From Rouxiella silvae (GTDB lineage Bacteria; Pseudomonadota; Gammaproteobacteria; Enterobacterales; Enterobacteriaceae), in NCBI RefSeq assembly GCF_002093625.1, contig NZ_MRWD01000052.1, positions 1-41,642 of the forward strand: a DNA stretch of 41,642 nt, in the 5' to 3' direction. A program made the position numbers and the translations under genes. Of this stretch, positions 17,708 to 37,508 are shown one piece after another. Position 1 is the first letter of the stretch. Each line of letters opens with the position of its first letter. A model generated the notes under the pieces. The model ran no database searches. It had not been told where the DNA came from and saw nothing but the letters and a program-made list of their open reading frames with translations.

Positions 17708-18862
17708 TTAGTAGCTAAGCGTAAGGATCTCTTTTGCACGTGCCAAGTCGATATCCTGCTGCTCACCCATCGGCAACATGTTGAAACGCTTCAGGTTTTC
17801 GAGGATTTCATCAATTGCAGTTTTAGGGTGTCCATGCGCGCTGAGCTGCGTTTTCAATCCCATTAACTCAAAGAATTCACGCGTTTTTGCAATGGCGGCG
17901 TCAATGCGGGTATCGTCGTCTCCAGCAGTAATATTCCACACACGCTCCGCATACTGCAGCAGTTTCTGCTTTTTGCTGTCACGCTGCACTTGCAGCAGGG
18001 CGGGCAGCAAAATAGTCAGCGTTTGAGCGTGGTCGATACCGTAGAGTGCCGTTAATTGGTGACCAATGCGGTGGGTGGCCCAGTCCTGCGGCACGCCCAC
18101 GCCGATCAGGCCATTTAGCGCCAGCGTTGCCGACCAAGTGATGGCGGACCGCACGTCATAGTTCTGCGGGTCACTTAACGCTTTCGGACCTTCCTCTATT
18201 AAGGTGAGCAGCAGACCCTCGGCAAAACGGTCCTGCACTTTTCCGTAGACTGGATAAGTCAAATACTGTTCAACAACGTGAATGAAAGCATCAACCACGC
18301 CGTTGGCAACCTGAGTTATCGGCAGGGTGTAAGTTTTAGTCGGGTCCAATACGGCAAATTTAGGGAACAGCAGCGGGTGGCTATAGCCGGATTTCTGCCC
18401 CAGTGCGGTGTTGGTGACCACCGCAACGTCATTCGTTTCAGAGCCAGTGGCTGGCAAAGTCATCACGCAGCCCAATGGCAGCGCATCGGTCAGCGGCTGA
18501 CGCGCGGCCCACAGTGGCCAAATGTCACCCTCATAGCACGCCGCAGCAGCAATAAACTTGGTGCCGTCGACCACTGAACCGCCGCCCACGGCCAGCAGAA
18601 AATCAATGTTGTTTTCTTTAATAATATCGACCGCTTTCATCAGCGTATCTAAATGCGGGTTAACTTCGATACCGCCAAATTCAAACGTGACGCGGTCACC
18701 TAATGCAGCCTGTACTTCATCCAGTGTGCCATATTTTTTAGCACTGCCGCCGCCGTAGGTGATCAGCACGCGGGCATTTTCAGGGATATTTTTACCGATA
18801 TCCGCGATTCGGTCGACGCCGAACAGCACGCGCGTAGGGTTGTAAAAATCGAAATTAAACAT
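17708..18862 (-). CDS. yqhD: Iron-containing alcohol dehydrogenase, YqhD type (aldehyde reductase)
   Basis: 384-aa group III alcohol dehydrogenase close in length and sequence to E. coli YqhD (387 aa), an NADPH-dependent reductase of short aldehydes. The GGGS cofactor motifs (ITYGGGSAKKYG, AVGGGSVVDGTKFIA) and the metal ligands are present: NGVVDAFIHVVEQ (Asp, His), THRIGHQLT (His) and GIDHAQT (His). In E. coli, yqhD is controlled by the AraC-type YqhC and flanked by dkgA; neither is here, so this may be a paralogue. The region upstream of its start runs into the hairpin array. Confidence 0.85.
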   Translation of the reverse strand: MFNFDFYNPTRVLFGVDRIADIGKNIPENARVLITYGGGSAKKYGTLDEVQAALGDRVTFEFGGIEVNPHLDTLMKAVDIIKENNIDFLLAVGGGSVVDGTKFIAAAACYEGDIWPLWAARQPLTDALPLGCVMTLPATGSETNDVAVVTNTALGQKSGYSHPLLFPKFAVLDPTKTYTLPITQVANGVVDAFIHVVEQYLTYPVYGKVQDRFAEGLLLTLIEEGPKALSDPQNYDVRSAITWSATLALNGLIGVGVPQDWATHRIGHQLTALYGIDHAQTLTILLPALLQVQRDSKKQKLLQYAERVWNITAGDDDTRIDAAIAKTREFFELMGLKTQLSAHGHPKTAIDEILENLKRFNMLPMGEQQDIDLARAKEILTLSY

Positions 18863-19028
18863 GGTTTGCCCTTATGGAAGAGTACACAGCAGTTGAATGC
18901 AATAATGACGTAATGATTACCATGATACGACAATCAAGGGTATGAATTGTCACCGTTTGACGGTGGGTGCCGCACAATCTGCTTATCTGAAAGAGTAATG
19001 TTAGGGTCTATACCGGACGTCGCGATAT

Positions 19029-20039
19029 CCCCATCCTAGCCTTCCCCAAATATGGGGAAGGGATAACACCGAGAGATTGGGCGGATGGAAGGGTGTGAGT
19101 GAAAACATCGCGATATCCCCATCCTAGCCTTCCCCAAAAATGGGGAAGGGATAAAACCGAGAGGTTGAGTGGGTGGAAGAGGTGAGTGAAAACATTGCGG
19201 TATCCCCATCCTAGCCTTCCCCAAAAATGGGGAAGGGATAACACCGAGAGATTGGGTGGATGGAAGGGTGTGAGTGAAAACGCTGCGGTATCCCCATCCT
19301 AGCCTTCCCCAGAAATGGGGAAGGGATAAAACCGATAGATTTAGTGGGTGGAAGAGGTGAGTGAAAACATCGCGGTATCCCCATCCTAGCCTTCCCCAAA
19401 AATGGGGAAGGGATAACACCGAGAGATTGGGTGGATGGAAGGGTGTGAGTGAAAACGCTGCGGTATCCCCATCCTAGCCTTCCCCAGAAATGGGGAAGGG
19501 ATAAAACCGATAGATTTAGTGGGTGGAAGAGGTGAGTGAAAACATCGCGGTATCCCCATCCTAGCCTTCCCCAAAAATGGGGAAGGGATAACACCGATAG
19601 ATTGGGTGGATGGAAGGGTGTGAGTGAAAACGCTGCGGTATCCCCATCCTAGCCTTCCCCAAAAATGGGGAAGGGATAAAACCGATAGATTTAGTGGGTG
19701 GAAGAGGTGAGTGAAAATGCCGCGGCATCCCCATCCTAGCCTTCCCCAAATATGGGGAAGGGATAAAACCGAGACCCAGCCTTCCCTAAATATGGGGAAG
19801 GGGTAAAACCTAGAGGTTGAGTGGATGGAAGGGTGTGAGTGAAACGCTGCGGTATCCCCATCCTAGCCTTCCCTAAATATGGGGAAGGGATAGAACCGAG
19901 ACCCAGCGTTCCCCAAAAATGGGGAAGGGATAAAACCGAGAGATTGAGTGGATGGAAGAGGGTAAGTGAAAACATCGCTGTTTTCCCATCTTGGCGAATT
20001 ATAATCCCTTCCCCCTTTGGGGGAAGGTTAGGATGGGGG
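19029..20039. repeat. Tandem array of 13 CCTTCCCC/GGGGAAGG hairpins with higher-order 175-bp dimers
   Basis: CCCCATCCTAGCCTTCCC begins units at 19029, 19117, 19204, 19292, 19379, 19467, 19554, 19642 and 19729, giving periods that alternate 88 and 87 bp, i.e. four 175-bp A-B dimers. Two further units of about 127 bp follow (19729 and 19856), each with two hairpins. The array ends at 20007-20039 with a hairpin of CCTTCCCCC/GGGGGAAGG followed by the motif in inverse orientation. Each unit holds one hairpin and a conserved GGATGGAAG...GTGAGTGAAAAC linker. Stems are conserved while loops vary (AAATAT, AAAAAT, AGAAAT). It lies between the yqhD start and the DUF559 gene. There are no unique spacers. 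Confidence 0.93.
20007..20027 (-). terminator. Terminal array hairpin after the DUF559 gene
   Basis: CCCTTCCCCC-TTT-GGGGGAAGG forms a perfect 9-bp stem immediately after the DUF559 stop codon on the minus strand. It is the last, inverted member of the array and would act on the DUF559 transcript as a stabilising or terminating structure. Confidence 0.5.
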
Positions 20040-20372
20040 TGCCAGCAACGAAGAAATAGCATCAAGAACGCCCGACATATTTTCAAAAACCTCGAAATTC
20101 CAAAAACGAACTACTCGCCAGCCCAGATTGGATAAATACTTTGTCCTCAAAGCATCACGATAAGACCTTTCATCATGCTGCCCGCCGTCCAATTCAATAA
20201 TGAGGCTATGTTCTATGCAGGCAAAATCCACAATGTAGGGCGCAATAATGTGCTGCCTTCTGAATTTGGCACGCATTATCTGACGTTTTCGTACCCTATT
20301 CCAAAGCTTACGTTCGGCATCACTCATTGAGGTGCGTAGCTGACGACTTCGGTAAAGAGTTGCAGTGGGCAT
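20028..20372 (-). CDS. DUF559-family nuclease-like protein (PD-(D/E)XK / Vsr-like fold)
   Basis: 114-aa protein of the DUF559 family. The layout is typical: SDAERKLWNRVRKRQIMRAK near the N-terminus, FRRQHIIAPYIVDFACIEHS with the first catalytic Asp, LIIELDGGQHDERSYRD with the Glu-x-Asp and His of the nuclease core, and GWRVVRFWNFEVFENMSGVL at the end. The fold is related to very-short-patch-repair and restriction endonucleases, but the cellular role is unknown. I chose the ATG at 20372 because family members start about 15 residues before the AERKLW motif; the frame stays open to 20456. The gene points into the hairpin array, and its last codons and TAA stop (20028-20030) lie within the inverted CCCCATCCTAACC motif. 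Confidence 0.82.
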   Translation of the reverse strand: MPTATLYRSRQLRTSMSDAERKLWNRVRKRQIMRAKFRRQHIIAPYIVDFACIEHSLIIELDGGQHDERSYRDALRTKYLSNLGWRVVRFWNFEVFENMSGVLDAISSLLAPPS

Positions 20373-20497
20373 GAGCAGGTCCAAAAGTCTAAGCCTGCCG
20401 GGTATTTGTGAAGATGAGAAGAGAAGTGAGGTGCTTGTGGAATGTGTCGCCCACAATGATTTGCTTATGTAATAAATTTAAACGGGTTATGCAGCAC

Positions 20498-20530
20498 ATA
20501 AAAAAGCCCGCCCTCAACCGGGGCAGGCTT
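20498..20530 (-). terminator. metG terminator
   Basis: On the minus strand AAGCCTGCCCC pairs with GGGCGGGCTT and is followed by TTTTTT. It lies 25 bp after the metG stop codon. Confidence 0.85.
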
Positions 20531-20554
20531 AAACATGATTTGTTGTATAAGCCT

Positions 20555-22585
20555 TTACTTCACCTGCATACCAGGCTGAGCACCGCTGTCAGGACTGAGC
20601 AGGAAAATCTCTTTCCCGCCAGGACCGGCAGCCATCACCATACCTTCAGAAATGCCGAAACGCATTTTACGCGGTGCCAGGTTGGCAACCATGATAGTTA
20701 AACGGCCTTCAAGCAGTTTTGGATCTGGATAGGCCGAGCGAATGCCGGAGAAAATCTGACGTTTCTCGCCGCCTAAATCCAGCTGTAGGCGCAGCAGTTT
20801 GTCGGAGCCTTCCACAAAGTCAGCGCTTTCAATCAGCGCAATGCGCATATCAACTTTGGCAAATTCGTCAAAGTTGATGGTTTCCTGAATCGGCGCATCG
20901 GCCAATGGGCCGGTCACTGGGGCCTTGGCCGCGGCGATGTCTTCTTTAGAGGCATCAACCATTGCGGTAACCTTATCCAGCTCGATGCGGTTGAACAGCG
21001 CCTTGAACGGGTTAACTTTATGGCTCAGCAGCGGCTGGGCGATAGCATCCCAAGTCAGTTCAGTATTGAGAAATGCCTCGGTACGCTCGGTCAAAGAAGG
21101 CAGAACCGGCTTGAGGTAAGTCATCAGAACACGGAACAGGTTAATGCCCATTGAACAGATTGCCTGCAGGTCAGCATCGCGGCCTTCCTGTTTTGCCACC
21201 ACCCACGGAGCCTGCTCGTCAACATAGCGGTTGGCAAGGTCTGCCAGTGCCATGATTTCACGAATGGCACGACCTGATTCACGGCTGCTGTAGGCCTCGG
21301 CGATGCTGGTTGCGGCATCGGTAAAGGTTTTGTACAACGCTTCGTCAGCCAATTTGTCGGCCAAAACGCCGTCAAAACGCTTGTTGATGAAACCGGCATT
21401 ACGCGAGGCCAGGTTGACCACTTTGTTAACGATGTCGGCGTTTACGCGCTGCACGAAGTCTTCAAGATTTAGGTCGATGTCGTCGATGCGTGAAGACAGC
21501 TTAGCGGCGTAGTAGTAACGCAGACAGTCGGCATCAAGGTGCTGCAAATACGTGCTGGCCTTGATAAAGGTGCCGCGCGATTTAGACATCTTCGCGCCGT
21601 TGACCGTCACGTAGCCGTGTACGAACAGGTTGGTAGGCTTGCGGAAGTTGCTGCCTTCGAGCATTGCTGGCCAGAACAGGCTGTGGAAATAGACGATGTC
21701 CTTGCCAATAAAGTGATACAGCTCGGTGGTGGAGTCTTTTTTCCAGAACTCGTCGAAGTTCAAATCAGGGCGACGGTCGCACAGGTTTTTAAAGGAACCC
21801 ATGTAGCCGATCGGCGCGTCGAGCCAGACGTAGAAATATTTACCCGGCGCATCAGGAATTTCGAAGCCGAAGTATGGCGCATCGCGGCTGATGTCCCACT
21901 GCTGCAGGCCTGATTCAAACCACTCCTGCATTTTATTGGCAACCTGCTCCTGCAACGCGCCCGAGCGGGTCCACGCCTGAAGCATGGCGCTGAATTCCGG
22001 CAGATCGAAGAAGTAGTGTTCTGAATCACGCATGATCGGCGTAGCGCCGGAAACGGCAGATTTAGGGTCAATAAGCTCGGTTGGGCTGTAGGTTGCGCCA
22101 CACACTTCACAGTTATCGCCGTATTGGTCCGGTGATTTACATTTCGGACAGGTGCCTTTCACAAAGCGATCGGGCAGGAACATGCCTTTCTCAGGATCGT
22201 AAAGTTGAGAAATAGTACGATTCTTGATGAAGCCATTTTCTTTCAGACGGCTATAAATCAGCGTAGACAGTTCGCGGTTCTCGTCGCTGTGCGTTGAGTG
22301 ATAGTTATCGTAGCTGATACCAAAACCGGCAAAGTCTTTCTGATGTTCCTGGCTCATCTCCTCAATCATTTGCTCCGGCGCAATGCCCATCTGCTGCGCT
22401 TTAAGCATGATCGGGGTGCCGTGCGCGTCGTCGGCGCAGATGAAGTGAGTTTGGTGGCCGCGCATTCGCTGATAACGGACCCAGATATCTGCCTGGATGT
22501 GCTCGAGCATGTGTCCGAGATGAATTGAACCGTTAGCATAAGGAAGTGCACAGGTTACCAAAATTTTTTTCGCGACTTGAGCCAT
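20555..22585 (-). CDS. metG: Methionyl-tRNA synthetase
   Basis: 676-aa class I aminoacyl-tRNA synthetase, the same length as E. coli MetG within one residue. The HIGH-type motif is HLGH (residues 22-25). A zinc knuckle with two Cys-x2-Cys pairs (CPKC and CEVC) follows near 146-162, KMSKSRG is the KMSKS loop, and the C-terminal tRNA-binding domain starts near [16 protein letters not shown]. It charges initiator and elongator tRNAs with methionine. The frame is open 56 codons further upstream, but that extension has no family similarity, so MAQVAKK at 22585 is the start. It is divergent from mrp. Confidence 0.97.
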
Positions 22586-22762
22586 AGTAAGAGCTTGCTT
22601 TCTTTTTTGAGAATGGGGTATCGATGTTAACTCACAGAACGACCCTACGTAAACAAACGGGGATTCTGTTATGCTATTTTTATAACAGTAAGATAGCGGA
22701 GCATTTTCAGAAACTGCTTCGTTACTGAATTCCATAATAAATCCGTATTTCAAGGAGCCGGG

Positions 22763-30863: not shown

Positions 30864-31631
30864 ATGAAGTATAGTCTAGGGTATCTTCTCGATTTGGCTA
30901 CGGTCATCACTGAGAAAGAATTAAAAGTTAGATATAAGAGCAGTTTCTTTGGATACTTGTGGTCAATTGCCAATCCATTACTTTTTGCCATGATCTATTA
31001 CTTTATCTTTAAACTGATCATGCGTGTACAGATTCCAAACTATACCGTATTTATCATTTCAGGTTTGTTCCCGTGGCAGTGGTTTGCTAGCTCAACGTCG
31101 AACTCTCTATTTTCATTCATTGCCAATGCGCAGATCATCAAGAAAACGGTCTTTCCTCGCTCAATTATCCCGTTCAGTAACGTACTCATGGAATGTCTAC
31201 ATTTCCTGTGTACCATACCGGTAATTATTGTTTTCCTTTACATTTATGGAATGAGTCCCTCTTGGGATTGGATTTGGGGCGTGCCGCTGATTGGTATTGC
31301 GCAAATGGCCTTCACGCTGGGAATAGCGCTAACTCTCTCAACGTTGAATCTGTTTTTCAGGGATCTCGAAAGATTTATCACCCTTGGCATCATGCTGCTG
31401 TTCTACTGCACGCCAATTCTATACGCGGGAGATATGATACCTCAACAGTATCACTGGCTGATTGACTATAATCCATTGGCTAATATGATCTTGAGCTGGA
31501 GAGACTTGTTCATGAATGGCGTGATTAATTATCATGAAGTTTTCATGCTCTATGGTTATGCAGTCATATCACTTCTGATCGGCTCCTTCGTATTTAATAA
31601 GTTAAAATACAGATTTGCAGAGATACTATAA
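30864..31631 (+). CDS. wzm: O-antigen ABC transporter permease Wzm
   Basis: 255-aa inner-membrane ABC-2 type permease with about six helices. The early amphipathic segment KELKVRYKSSFFGYLWSIAN and the PFSNVLMECLHFL region are typical of polysaccharide exporters. With Wzt it flips the finished undecaprenyl-linked O-polysaccharide to the periplasm. First gene after JUMPstart; GAGAG lies upstream of the ATG. Its TAA overlaps the wzt ATG (TAATG), so the two are translationally coupled. Codon use is visibly more AT-rich than in the flanking housekeeping genes, as is usual for O-antigen loci. Confidence 0.92.
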   Translation: MKYSLGYLLDLATVITEKELKVRYKSSFFGYLWSIANPLLFAMIYYFIFKLIMRVQIPNYTVFIISGLFPWQWFASSTSNSLFSFIANAQIIKKTVFPRSIIPFSNVLMECLHFLCTIPVIIVFLYIYGMSPSWDWIWGVPLIGIAQMAFTLGIALTLSTLNLFFRDLERFITLGIMLLFYCTPILYAGDMIPQQYHWLIDYNPLANMILSWRDLFMNGVINYHEVFMLYGYAVISLLIGSFVFNKLKYRFAEIL

Positions 31632-32371
31632 TGAGTGCTGTTATTGAGTTTGTGAACGTCACGAAAAGATATCCCCTTTATCATCATATTGGTTCTGGGA
31701 TAAAAGAGCTTATTTTTAATCCAAAACGAGCACTCAGCTTACTCACAGGCAGAAGCTACCTCGCTATAGAAGATATTAATTTTCAAGTGATGAAGGGTGA
31801 GTCTGTAGCCTTAATTGGACGTAACGGTGCCGGTAAAAGTACGTCTTTAGGACTCGTTGCGGGCGTAATGAGGCCGTCATCAGGTCAAGTCAAAGTGAGT
31901 GGCCGCGTTGCCTCGATGCTTGAGTTGGGCGGTGGATTTCACCCTGAGCTTACGGGTCGTGAAAACATCCGTCTTAATGCAGTTCTCCTCGGATTACGTA
32001 GAAAAGAGCTGAACCAAAGATTAGATAAAATAATAGAGTTTTCAGAGCTTGGTGAGTTTATCGACGAGCCGATCCGTGTTTATTCCAGCGGCATGTTAGC
32101 TAAACTAGGCTTCTCGGTAATTAGCCAGGTAGACCCTGATATTTTAATCATCGATGAAGTGTTGGCCGTAGGTGATATTGCATTTCAGCGAAAGTGCTTA
32201 AATACAATTGAAGATTTTAAAAGAAAAGGCGTAACTATCCTGTTCGTGAGTCATAACTTGTCTGATGTTGAGAAAGTGTGCGACAAAGTGATATGGATTG
32301 AAAATCATCGACTTAAGCAAATGGGCCCGGCCCATGAAGTGATTGCCAGCTACAAAGAAGCTATGTCTTAA
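31631..32371 (+). CDS. wzt: O-antigen ABC transporter ATPase Wzt, short form
   Basis: 246-aa ATPase of the polysaccharide exporter family. Walker A (IGRNGAGKST, about 69-78), signature (VYSSGMLAKLGFS) and Walker B with ILIIDEVLAVGD are intact. It lacks the extra C-terminal carbohydrate-binding domain that the longer Wzt proteins of E. coli O8/O9a use to recognise a chain-end modification. It therefore fits the D-galactan I type of exporter, in which export is coupled to synthesis without a dedicated terminating residue. Confidence 0.92.
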   Translation: MSAVIEFVNVTKRYPLYHHIGSGIKELIFNPKRALSLLTGRSYLAIEDINFQVMKGESVALIGRNGAGKSTSLGLVAGVMRPSSGQVKVSGRVASMLELGGGFHPELTGRENIRLNAVLLGLRRKELNQRLDKIIEFSELGEFIDEPIRVYSSGMLAKLGFSVISQVDPDILIIDEVLAVGDIAFQRKCLNTIEDFKRKGVTILFVSHNLSDVEKVCDKVIWIENHRLKQMGPAHEVIASYKEAMS

Positions 32372-32411
32372 TTATTTTGTTAATCCTAATTTGATCTTGA
32401 CGGATTTTTGA

Positions 32412-34304
32412 ATGAAAAATATTAATATTTACACCTGCCACCATAAGCCGAGTGCTTTTTTATCAAGCGATTTGATTACGCCTATTCACGTTGGCAAGGC
32501 CAACAGTTTTAATGAAATAGGTTGTGCTGGTGATGAGACCGGTGAAAATATATCTTTTAAAAACCCCTTTTACTGCGAATTGACCGCGCAGTATTGGGTA
32601 TGGAAAAATGCGGCTCCAAGCGACTATGTCGGATTTATGCACTATCGTCGCCATCTGAATTTTTCTGCTGATCAAGGTAAACCAGAAGATAACTGGGGGG
32701 TAGTGAACTATCCTGAGATTACGTCAGAATACGAAAAAATCTTTGGTTTAGACAGTGAGTCTATAGCATCTTGTATTGGTGATTACGACATTATCCTGCC
32801 TAAAAAATGGAGCGTTAAAGCGGCGGGCAGTAGCAATAATTACCAGCACTATAAAATATCCAACTACCTGCATATCAAAGATTACCAAGCTGCGATCGAC
32901 GTATTGCTAAAACGCCATCCGGAATATTATCAGGCAGTAAAAGAGTTTAACGCTGCTTCCGATGGTTATTATACCAATATGTATGTTATGACTCAGGCAT
33001 TATTTACCGAGTATTCTGCGTGGCTGTTCGGCATCTTCGACGATCTTGAAAATGAAATTTCATTTGATAATTATAATGCTCAAGAAAAAAGAGTTATTGG
33101 GCATATCTCTGAAAGATTGTTCAATATCTTTGTTATCTATAAATCATCCGTAACACCCCTCAAAGTTAAAGAGGTTCAGCGTACTTTTATCTCGCAGGAA
33201 ACGTTTAACGGGGTTATTGAGCCATTTTACAAGACTCACTCTGTACCCTTGGTCATCTGTTTTGACGACAACTATGCGATGAGCGGCGGCGCTCTGATTA
33301 ACTCCATTGTTAAAAATAGTTCTTCCGATAAAAATTATGACATCGTCATTCTCGAAAATGGCGTTTCACAAAGAAATAAAGGCCGGCTGAAAGAATTAGT
33401 CAAAGAGCATTCAAATATAAACGTTCGTTTCTTTGACGTTAATGCCTTCAGCGAACTTAAAGGGGTATACACGCGAGCCCACTTTAGTGCGGCTACCTAT
33501 GCGCGACTGTTTATCCCACAACTTTTCAAAAAATTTCCACGCGTACTGTTTATTGATGCCGATACTGTCGTCGAAAGCGATGTTGCAGAAATCTTAGATT
33601 TAGATATCGGTAACAACCTTGTTGCTGCTGTAAAAGATATCGTGATGGAAGGGTTTGTTAAGTTTAATGCCATTGCTCAGTCCGACAGTGGTGTTCAAAC
33701 CGCGGCTCAGTATTTAAAAACCAGTTTGCTGATGGAAGATCCAGATAAGTATTTCCAAGCGGGTATTATCTTGTTCAATGTCGAAGTGATGAACCAAGAG
33801 AATACTTTTTCCAAGTTAATGGAAAGCATGAAAGAGAAAAACTACTGGTTCCTCGATCAAGACATAATGAATAAAGTCTTCTATAACAGAGTGCATTATT
33901 TGCCGCTGTGCTGGAATGTTTATCACGGTAACGGAAATACTGACGACTTCTTCCCTAATCTGAAGTTTTCAACGTATATGAGTTTCCTTGATGCGCGTAG
34001 AAACCCAAAAATGATCCACTACGCGGGCGAAAACAAACCGTGGAATACCTCAAACGTGGACTTTTTCGATAATTTCTTGAAGAACATCCACAATACTCCA
34101 TGGGAAAAAGATGTCTATGAGCGTCTGCTTTCTCACGGTACAAAAAGCACGGACCCGGCGATGCCATTGCCGAGCGTATTACTGCAAACCAAAATTAAAC
34201 GTAAGTTGATGCCACATTTTAACAAGTTTGCGCCTATTGGTTCTCGCCGTAGAAGCTCAGTCAGCAAATTTTACTATAAAATTAGACGCATCGTTTTAGG
34301 CTAA
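32412..34304 (+). CDS. wbbM: WbbM, dual-domain galactan polymerase (DUF4422/GT111 + GT8)
   Basis: 630-aa glycosyltransferase. Residues about 1-270 are the DUF4422 domain (INIYTCHHKPSAFLSSD, YWVWKNA and FMHYRRHLNF), the family GT111 galactofuranosyltransferase. Residues about 280-560 are a GT8 galactopyranosyltransferase domain (VPLVICFDDNYAMSGGALIN, ARLFIPQLFKKFPRVLFIDA and DTVVES, with the Asp-Ala-Asp metal site). The basic C-terminal tail (from about 590) probably binds the membrane. This two-domain order and length match Klebsiella O2a WbbM, which polymerises alternating Galp and Galf. It follows wzt by 40 bp and has a weak ribosome binding site. Confidence 0.92.
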   Translation: MKNINIYTCHHKPSAFLSSDLITPIHVGKANSFNEIGCAGDETGENISFKNPFYCELTAQYWVWKNAAPSDYVGFMHYRRHLNFSADQGKPEDNWGVVNYPEITSEYEKIFGLDSESIASCIGDYDIILPKKWSVKAAGSSNNYQHYKISNYLHIKDYQAAIDVLLKRHPEYYQAVKEFNAASDGYYTNMYVMTQALFTEYSAWLFGIFDDLENEISFDNYNAQEKRVIGHISERLFNIFVIYKSSVTPLKVKEVQRTFISQETFNGVIEPFYKTHSVPLVICFDDNYAMSGGALINSIVKNSSSDKNYDIVILENGVSQRNKGRLKELVKEHSNINVRFFDVNAFSELKGVYTRAHFSAATYARLFIPQLFKKFPRVLFIDADTVVESDVAEILDLDIGNNLVAAVKDIVMEGFVKFNAIAQSDSGVQTAAQYLKTSLLMEDPDKYFQAGIILFNVEVMNQENTFSKLMESMKEKNYWFLDQDIMNKVFYNRVHYLPLCWNVYHGNGNTDDFFPNLKFSTYMSFLDARRNPKMIHYAGENKPWNTSNVDFFDNFLKNIHNTPWEKDVYERLLSHGTKSTDPAMPLPSVLLQTKIKRKLMPHFNKFAPIGSRRRSSVSKFYYKIRRIVLG

Positions 34305-36364
<2,060 letters not shown>

Positions 36365-36377
36365 CTGGTGGTTTCAG

Positions 36378-37508
36378 ATGAAGAAAGTATGTTACATCAT
36401 AAATTCAGATTGGTACTTTGAGCTGCATTGGATAGAAAGAGCATTGGCAGCCAAGATGGCAGGGTATGAAGTTCATGTTATTTGCCACTTCGAAGGAGAG
36501 GACGTTAAGTCCCGTCTCGAGGGACAAGGTTTTATATGCCATAACTCTGAGGTTGCCGCTCAATCTTACAATCCTTTAGGGTTTATCGTCACCTTTACTA
36601 AAATTTGGGCCATGCTCAAAAAACTAAACCCGGAAATTTTGCACTGTATTACGATTAAATCAACGGTAACTGGGGGTATTTATGCCAAAGTACGTTCTAG
36701 GCCCGTTGTGTTGAGTTTTGCCGGTTTGGGGCGTGTATTTGATCACTCAAAAGGCATACATAATCTATTACGGTTCTGCACTTTAGCTGTGTACAGGTAT
36801 ATTGCCAAAAATAAAAAAGCCACATTAGTTTTTGAACATGAATTTGACAGAGATACGTTACTTTCATTAACCGGTATTGATATTAATCAGACGCTGGTGA
36901 TTGATGGGGCGGGTATTAACACAGAAGAATATCCCTATTCTACAGAGCCAGGTACTACTCTGCCGGTTGTACTTTTTGCCAGCCGAATGCTGTGGAGTAA
37001 AGGGTTAGGTGATTTAATTACTGTTAAAAAATCGCTTGAAAAGTCTGACATACACTTCCAATTAAACGTTGCCGGTATCATTTCCAGCGCTGACGCCGAT
37101 GCCATACCCCTAAGCACCATCGAACAATGGCATCAGGAAGGCTCTATAAACTGGCTAGGCAGAAGTAATAATGTCAGCCAACTGATTAAAGAGGCCAATA
37201 TTGTTGCTTTACCCTCAACGTATTCGGAGGGCGTACCGCGAATATTGCTAGAGGCGGCCTCTATTGGGAGAGCATCGCTGACTTATGATGTTGGGGGGTG
37301 TAAAAGTATTGTTCACAATGGTGAAAATGGGTTTCTTATCGAAAAGAAAAATTTGATTGAGCTCGAAAATAAAATGAAGATTCTACTATTGCAACCCGAC
37401 GTTCGCCATCGAATGGGACTTGTGGGGCGCAGTCTGGCGCTAAATAAGTTCTCATCTTCTAGGGTGATTTTAAAAACCTTAGATCTGTACCATAGGACTG
37501 AGGCTTAG
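36378..37508 (+). CDS. wbbO: WbbO, family-4 glycosyltransferase starting the galactan chain
   Basis: 376-aa GT4 (GT-B fold) enzyme, the size of Klebsiella WbbO. The N-terminus is MKKVCYIINSDWYFELHWIE. The C-terminal donor domain has the GT4 E-x7-E pattern in STYSEGVPRILLEAASIGRA, and VLFASRMLWSKGLGDLI opens the domain. In the Klebsiella O2a pathway WbbO adds the first galactose residues to GlcNAc-PP-undecaprenol, after which WbbM polymerises; WecA makes the carrier elsewhere. It is the last gene of the six-gene operon and ends before a bidirectional terminator. Confidence 0.87.
   Translation: MKKVCYIINSDWYFELHWIERALAAKMAGYEVHVICHFEGEDVKSRLEGQGFICHNSEVAAQSYNPLGFIVTFTKIWAMLKKLNPEILHCITIKSTVTGGIYAKVRSRPVVLSFAGLGRVFDHSKGIHNLLRFCTLAVYRYIAKNKKATLVFEHEFDRDTLLSLTGIDINQTLVIDGAGINTEEYPYSTEPGTTLPVVLFASRMLWSKGLGDLITVKKSLEKSDIHFQLNVAGIISSADADAIPLSTIEQWHQEGSINWLGRSNNVSQLIKEANIVALPSTYSEGVPRILLEAASIGRASLTYDVGGCKSIVHNGENGFLIEKKNLIELENKMKILLLQPDVRHRMGLVGRSLALNKFSSSRVILKTLDLYHRTEA

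Follow-up and report, generated by a model that had tools for sequence, protein, structure and literature searches.

Is a nuclease-like gene that ends within a hairpin motif tied to the spread of that motif? This question is raised by a stretch of 41,642 nucleotides from Rouxiella silvae (contig NZ_MRWD01000052.1; the whole stretch is called the window here), in which a DUF559 gene adjoins a tandem array of hairpins. An initial annotation of the window had likened this arrangement to REP elements and their RAYT transposases, and had proposed to look for the motif beside other DUF559 genes and to compare its copy number in genomes with and without the gene; both comparisons were carried out in a broader form.

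The DUF559 locus of Rouxiella silvae

The gene (20028-20372, minus strand), assigned to DUF559 (PF04480) and to a Vsr-like PD-(D/E)XK nuclease fold by profile, model and fold matches, lies between two conserved minus-strand neighbours named by eye, an iron-type alcohol dehydrogenase gene (17708-18862) and metG (20555-22753). Its open frame extends to 20456, and the ATG at 20372 corresponds to the end point given in the initial annotation. Residues 35-137 of the ORF 20028-20456(-) matched PF04480 with E = 1.8e-38 and 131.2 bits (curated cut-off 20.6), which confirms the earlier assignment; DUF559 and MTES_1575 were the sole Pfam matches of the protein.

A recount of the hairpins at 19029-20372 again gave 13, with 12 in the tandem array of 88-bp units (19029-19971, plus strand) and one at the gene end, where the entries at 20007 and 20008 denote a single hairpin and were counted once. 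Nine array hairpins are perfect CCTTCCCC/GGGGAAGG pairs and three, at 19780, 19867 and 19907, carry one stem mismatch. Tandem Repeats Finder described the array as an 88-bp unit repeated 8.6 times (or a 175-bp dimer repeated 4.3 times) at 19020-19774, followed by a 127-bp pattern up to 19971. The motif CCCCATCCTARCC, which had been taken as the start of each unit, stands ahead of 10 of the 12 array hairpins and thus does not open every unit. The gene ends in ...CCC CCA TCC TAA. As this is the inverse motif (a single inverse copy, at 20026), the last codons and stop of the gene lie within a repeat copy, as had been claimed. This gene-end repeat (20007-20038, minus strand) consists of a hairpin at 20007-20027, a TAA spacer doubling as the stop codon and a third-strand block at 20031-20038; a window copy reads GGGGAAGG-TTA-GGATGGGG, that is, stem, 3-nt spacer and third strand. 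The array has the opposite orientation to the gene-end copy, and its third-strand block is on the side facing away from the gene. Upstream of the window gene no hairpin was detected, which counts against reading this locus as a hairpin-DUF559-hairpin unit. An Rfam scan of 18800-20600 returned four rows up to E = 1, none close to the gathering score.

The genome contains one DUF559 gene and 16 sites of the exact hairpin kind, 10 in the window and 6 elsewhere, and the reversed-pattern control gave 0. Minus-strand open frames of 116-127 amino acids at 19036-19594 and 19736-20086 simply translate the array and are unlikely to be genes. Elsewhere in the genome (G000:C43 near 50,959; L003 about 1270-1520) a dispersed repeat copy ends a tandem array of about 50-bp units, with no adjoining DUF559 gene. 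At 30864-37508 of the window, ABC-transporter and glycosyltransferase-like genes lie by galF-like and gnd-like genes and, by eye, have the look of a surface-polysaccharide cluster.

Predicted fold of the DUF559 enzyme

A model of the window protein based on 49 sequences had a pLDDT of 89.8. The structure 3hrl is a solved relative (E = 9.6e-39 by sequence and 1.6e-8 by fold); the catalytic domain of the homing endonuclease I-Bth0305I (3r3p) was matched with 5.6e-4 by sequence and 2.6e-4 by fold, and Vsr (1cw0) by fold only (E = 0.027, prob 0.99). Residues invariant in the A3 alignment included E22, D51, E62, D64, Q67, H68 and D75. The predicted fold is Vsr/homing-endonuclease-like PD-(D/E)XK and not HUH, and it is this modelled fold that likens the enzyme to EDxHD homing endonucleases (I-Bth0305I) and to Vsr. 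In contrast to these, the window gene is flanked by repeats, and no intron, intein or methyltransferase partner was noticed among the window ORFs (methyltransferase by eye). In the accessible text of earlier papers, YcjD is placed in PD-(D/E)XK and a YcjD profile finds Vsr (PMC1189080), one DUF559 gene is assigned to the EDxHD homing family (PMC9403480), and the DUF559 protein VsrA of Caulobacter is tied to DNA damage, with mismatch repair proposed (PMC12907096).

The repeats and the BoxC/PIT/triplex family

In the repeat, a stem is followed after a short spacer by its mirror image as a third block, usually with one T-to-A change; stems and third blocks pair as CCCTCTCC with CCTCACCC, CCTTCCCC with CCCCATCC, CCTTCTCC with CCTCATCC and CCCTCCCC with CCCCACCC. 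Stem and third strand covary: among 187 elements near DUF559 genes, 119 reached a score of at least 7 of 8, compared to 47 when the arms were drawn from other loci (58 at most in 50 shuffles), 0 with the complement and 47 when the third block was taken as a direct repeat.

In their architecture the repeats agree with an orphan family already described, BoxC/PIT/intrastrand-triplex (Holder et al., 2015; PMC4666352). The available text of that survey describes a stem, a 3-nt spacer (TTA in type A, CCG in type B) and a third strand, gives 23 copies with five inverted A/B pairs for E. coli MG1655, and reports triplex formation of the E. coli motif in vitro that is unsupported in vivo. It also ties the repeats to genome instability, citing polymerase blocks, and states that flanking genes have no common function and that a transposase or integrase was never found nearby; its main text contains none of the terms DUF, Vsr, endonuclease and ycjD. 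BoxC, PIT and the intrastrand triplex motifs (TM, TMECO) are this same dispersed repeat, inverted A/B pairs included, with the difference that the survey, in its available text, names no mobility gene, to which the DUF559 link adds one candidate. The initial annotation had foreseen neither this known family nor an extension of the link past Enterobacterales to other phyla, and the same holds for E. coli ycjD as a further case and for units in frame within proteins.

Hairpins adjoin DUF559 genes

We assembled 111 loci, comprising that of the window, 30 matches from a sample of the order and 80 of the 566 confirmed relatives in genome_contigs. They are mainly from Proteobacteria, with one locus each from Planctomycetota, Nitrospirota, Melainabacteria, Doudnabacteria and a Bacteroidota-labelled bin. 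A first count found a pyrimidine-first hairpin upstream of 77/111 and downstream of 56/111 genes, at a background of 0.148 per kb. At the 81 compact DUF559 loci whose flanks were complete, a pyrimidine/purine hairpin was present within 250 bp in 73 (upstream 55, downstream 51, both sides 33), compared to 6 for the purine-first control, so that the enrichment proposed for the motif is strong for the hairpin class as a whole. Counted per 250-bp bin, the hairpins numbered 81 and 81 in the two gene-adjoining bins and 0 to 14 in bins further out. In the genome_contigs subset, 51/54 DUF559 genes had a hairpin beside them versus 38/293 other ORFs of the same loci, a fairer control because repeats favour intergenic DNA.

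Doublets and tandem arrays were also examined. Among 181 copies listed, which are the first-listed places in each of 30 genomes, 62 lay within 200 bp of another copy (median spacing 118), and doublets accounted for 56/127 copies listed in DUF559 genomes versus 6/54 in gene-less ones; in E. coli, 10/23 copies are in doublets. Tandem arrays within 600 bp of DUF559 numbered 25 in 103 kb, compared to 7 in 367 kb further off. The near arrays are spread over 16/90 compact loci, and the strict repeat pattern was present in 13 of the near arrays and in 1 of the distant ones. At the gonococcal relative of 3hrl, hairpins recur with a period of 281 bp.

The hairpins near a DUF559 gene resemble those dispersed in the same genome (similarity 0.83 vs 0.69, p = 1.8e-4; 8/10 genomes, G638 and G696 dropped, duplicates and two flank copies of G142 removed). 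Similarly, arm types are clustered on the protein tree, with 28 changes vs 40.4 and 0/500 shuffles reaching this value (labels for 69/94 rows). In G694, four DUF559 loci have different stems, one of which is also dispersed; there the match between near and dispersed copies is barely above the between-genome level (0.73 vs 0.71), which speaks against such a correspondence. The parallel to REP and RAYT drawn at the outset thus extends to inverted flanking copies, to dispersed doublets and to the clustering of arm types.

Copy number of the repeat and presence of the gene

In the order sample of 394 genomes, 88 had a PF04480 match. Of these, 58 were classed as compact, their best hit reaching about 53 bits or above (one fused frame and a few genes that are broken or partial are among them), and 30 as weak. 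With the pattern CCYTYYCC-N3..13-GGRRARGG, the median number of hairpins was 11.5 for compact DUF559 (n = 58), 0 for weak hits (n = 30) and 0 for genomes with none (n = 306). For the compact 58 versus the 306 without, a Mann-Whitney U test gave p = 1.4e-25 and a family-group permutation p ≤ 5e-5; p-values of this kind are partly too small because genomes are related. Within the window's own family, hairpins numbered 122.5 with the gene vs 3.0 without it, and within one genus 27 vs 13 (p = 0.013), while in Pasteurellaceae the difference was not significant (p = 0.13), the stem there being unlike the search pattern. In a phylum sample of 267 genomes, from which 32 genomes already in the order sample were left out, medians were 44 for strong hits (n = 75), 2 for weak hits (n = 25) and 1 for none (n = 167), and at least 10 net hairpins occurred in 57/75 genomes with DUF559 versus 8/192 without (within-family permutation p ≤ 5e-5). 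Genomes in which a long helicase-type protein has a weak DUF559-like hit behave as gene-less ones (medians 0 and 2). Copy number follows the gene, as anticipated, between and within families.

There are exceptions. No compact gene was detected in the eight repeat-rich genomes among the 192 of the phylum sample (for example G591 with 121 and G612 with 178 hairpins) or in G112 with 111, and the closest relative of R. silvae (G398) has 20 hairpins and no DUF559 gene; if gene and repeats form one mobile family, gene loss must therefore be assumed. Also, 11/75 phylum-sample genomes with the gene have fewer than 5 net hairpins, which argues against such a family.

Insertion sites and E. coli ycjD

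In G398, with 93% identity in the metG query, the adh-metG interval is found without the stretch at 19019-20498 (its left edge follows ...CCGGAC and its right edge precedes ATAAAAAAGCCC). Four genus relatives (G398 and three more) keep the neighbours and lack gene and array, and a fourth further member has another neighbour. Base-level edges come from G398 only, and at this site gain and loss look alike. Two dispersed copies of the window genome are present in G398 (one degenerate) and absent in four other genus members. Units occupy different positions: adh-metG in the window, sapF-fabI in E. coli, hemW-yggN in five Enterobacteriaceae genomes (neighbours by eye, K-12 order checked), and others, among them sites by a Dyp-type peroxidase gene or a cellulose-type locus in further Enterobacteriaceae. 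A flank duplication at insertion was considered and dropped, the alignment score of 30 comparing with 36 and 34 at two other window places.

Relatives occur in 42/72,556 records of a plasmid collection and in 3/50,697 phages, counts that say little on transfer because several 'plasmid' records are chromosome-sized (H16, H17, H19, H22 and H23, of 2.2 to 5.4 Mb, are chromosome-like). The nearest hint of mobility in print, in the available text of PMC12308824, is that repeated transposase/DUF559 segments of Legionella are recombination hotspots.

The E. coli MG1655 gene ycjD (b1289), annotated as a DUF559 protein, lies between sapF and fabI. The final codons of ycjD form a degenerate repeat that ends in the loop; a longer third block is present in another E. 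coli. Repeat no. 9 of the published list (1,351,239-1,351,204; PMC4666352, text seen in part) sits 168 bp past ycjD, and the available text of PMC12817139 notes 12 additional nt in the ycjD of ST69 and ST182. Of 5426 E. coli genomes, 3361 contain 80% or more of the ycjD region. An eef-bearing E. coli strain has neither the gene nor such a hairpin in 16 kb of the site, and at 30 fabI loci of other Enterobacteriaceae (27 of them sapF-flanked) ycjD was present in 0 and the hairpin in 0.

Units in frame within host proteins

Long open frames were found at 21/111 loci, and 18 of the 20 scanned by Pfam matched an additional host family. At six loci host domains flank DUF559 on both sides, namely Mfd, ValS twice, PriA, and two restriction enzymes, one MmeI-type and one Eco57I-type; the Mfd case also gave two BLASTP pieces to K-12 Mfd, and the ValS cases come from two phyla. 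The ends of these in-frame units are inverted hairpins, with the third block outward at L105, L062, L071 and L080 and inward at L072 and L093 (by eye). For IspE, M14 peptidase, polyA polymerase and HsdM, Pfam support is one-sided, and L026 is HsdS-like by eye only. N-terminal fusions (FolC, RimM, PurQ-like, deiminase, PaaD and lysyl-synthetase-like) may be open frames that run through two genes and were not counted as insertions.

One Rickettsiales genome (JAOIVE01 contigs; L051 and L072) carries the unit within both Mfd and ValS, and at L051 the repeat blocks flanking the unit are near-identical direct copies. In restriction proteins of type IIG/IIL and of the HsdM-like kind (L093, L099 and L112), DUF559 lies between the methylase and specificity domains or behind them, where it might serve as a nuclease domain.

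Discussion

There is good support for the association of hairpins with DUF559 genes, for their inverted bracketing of the gene and for insertion of the unit as a whole. We consider it probable that DUF559 genes and triplex-type hairpins (BoxC/PIT/TM) are one mobile family, similar to REPINs and RAYTs, which is driven by a Vsr-like nuclease and not by an HUH transposase. The simplest account would be that the nuclease drives the spread of the repeats. The full unit would be hairpin-DUF559-hairpin with inverted hairpins, gene-less doublets and single hairpins would be its non-autonomous offspring, and arrays like that of the window would be local amplifications. The Vsr-like nuclease may recognise its own hairpin subtype, perhaps as a folded single strand or triplex during replication, and may nick beside the hairpin, whereupon repair or replication would copy the unit, or hairpins alone, to a new site or into tandem copies.

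With REP/REPIN and RAYT such a family would share a single- or low-copy enzyme gene between inverted copies of a dispersed palindrome. It would differ in the enzyme, PD-(D/E)XK/Vsr-like instead of the HUH/Y1 tyrosine transposase of RAYTs, in the pyrimidine/purine stem with its third-strand block, and in the occurrence of the unit in frame within proteins. Palindromic repeats that are translated in frame within proteins are also known as Rickettsia palindromic elements; in contrast to these, a nuclease gene lies between the repeats here, and hosts extend beyond Rickettsiales. Inverted doublets about 100-150 bp apart and enzyme-specific repeat subtypes are a further likeness to REPINs (PMC3116915, text seen in part).

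The main rival explanation is that the hairpins owe their spread to some other enzyme, such as a RAYT or a different transposase, and that DUF559 is a homing-type nuclease which settles there. A homing endonuclease catalytic domain (3r3p) is indeed among the nearest solved folds, the accessible text of PMC9403480 assigns one DUF559 gene to the EDxHD homing family, and gene-less repeat-rich genomes exist. However, sites without the gene are hairpin-less as well (G398, the 27 sapF-fabI intervals and the eef-bearing E. coli), and the largest earlier survey, in its available text, saw neither a transposase nor an integrase close to the repeats (PMC4666352), so that we regard settlement by homing as unlikely. 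Slightly less credit still is given to the view that the repeats came first and block replication, and that repeat-rich genomes retain a Vsr-like nuclease for processing or repair; the accessible parts of PMC4666352, on genome instability and polymerase blocks, and of PMC12907096, on VsrA, DNA damage and proposed mismatch repair, agree with it, but it leaves unexplained why repeats bracket DUF559, move jointly with it and are placed with it in frame within proteins.

That there is no functional tie, and that two common mobile-looking sequences of similar base composition merely co-travel by gene transfer, would fit the patchy occurrence of DUF559 (88/394 genomes, 58 compact) and its variable loci. 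Yet a purine-first hairpin of equal composition seldom occurs at these places (6/81), third strand and stem covary, and copy number differs within families, which makes mere co-travelling very improbable.

Going beyond one mobile family of gene and repeats, we lean somewhat towards regarding TM-DUF559-TM as its own class of mobile element, whose only protein would be a Vsr-like PD-(D/E)XK nuclease and which would insert between genes and, without splicing, in frame into essential proteins. The BoxC/PIT/triplex repeats found in Enterobacteriaceae, Neisseria, Xanthomonas and other bacteria would derive from it, and K-12 ycjD would be a degenerate resident copy. No link between DUF559 and the repeats was found in the open-licence literature, subscription papers lying outside the search, or in the available text of PMC3733652. 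For repeats that were surveyed in thousands of genomes with no explanatory gene, DUF559 is a candidate enzyme, and as K-12 carries it (ycjD), the old question of these repeats is open to a knockout and an oligonucleotide assay. If true, this would give a role to DUF559, a widespread family, and would add an enzyme fold to the known drivers of short repeats.
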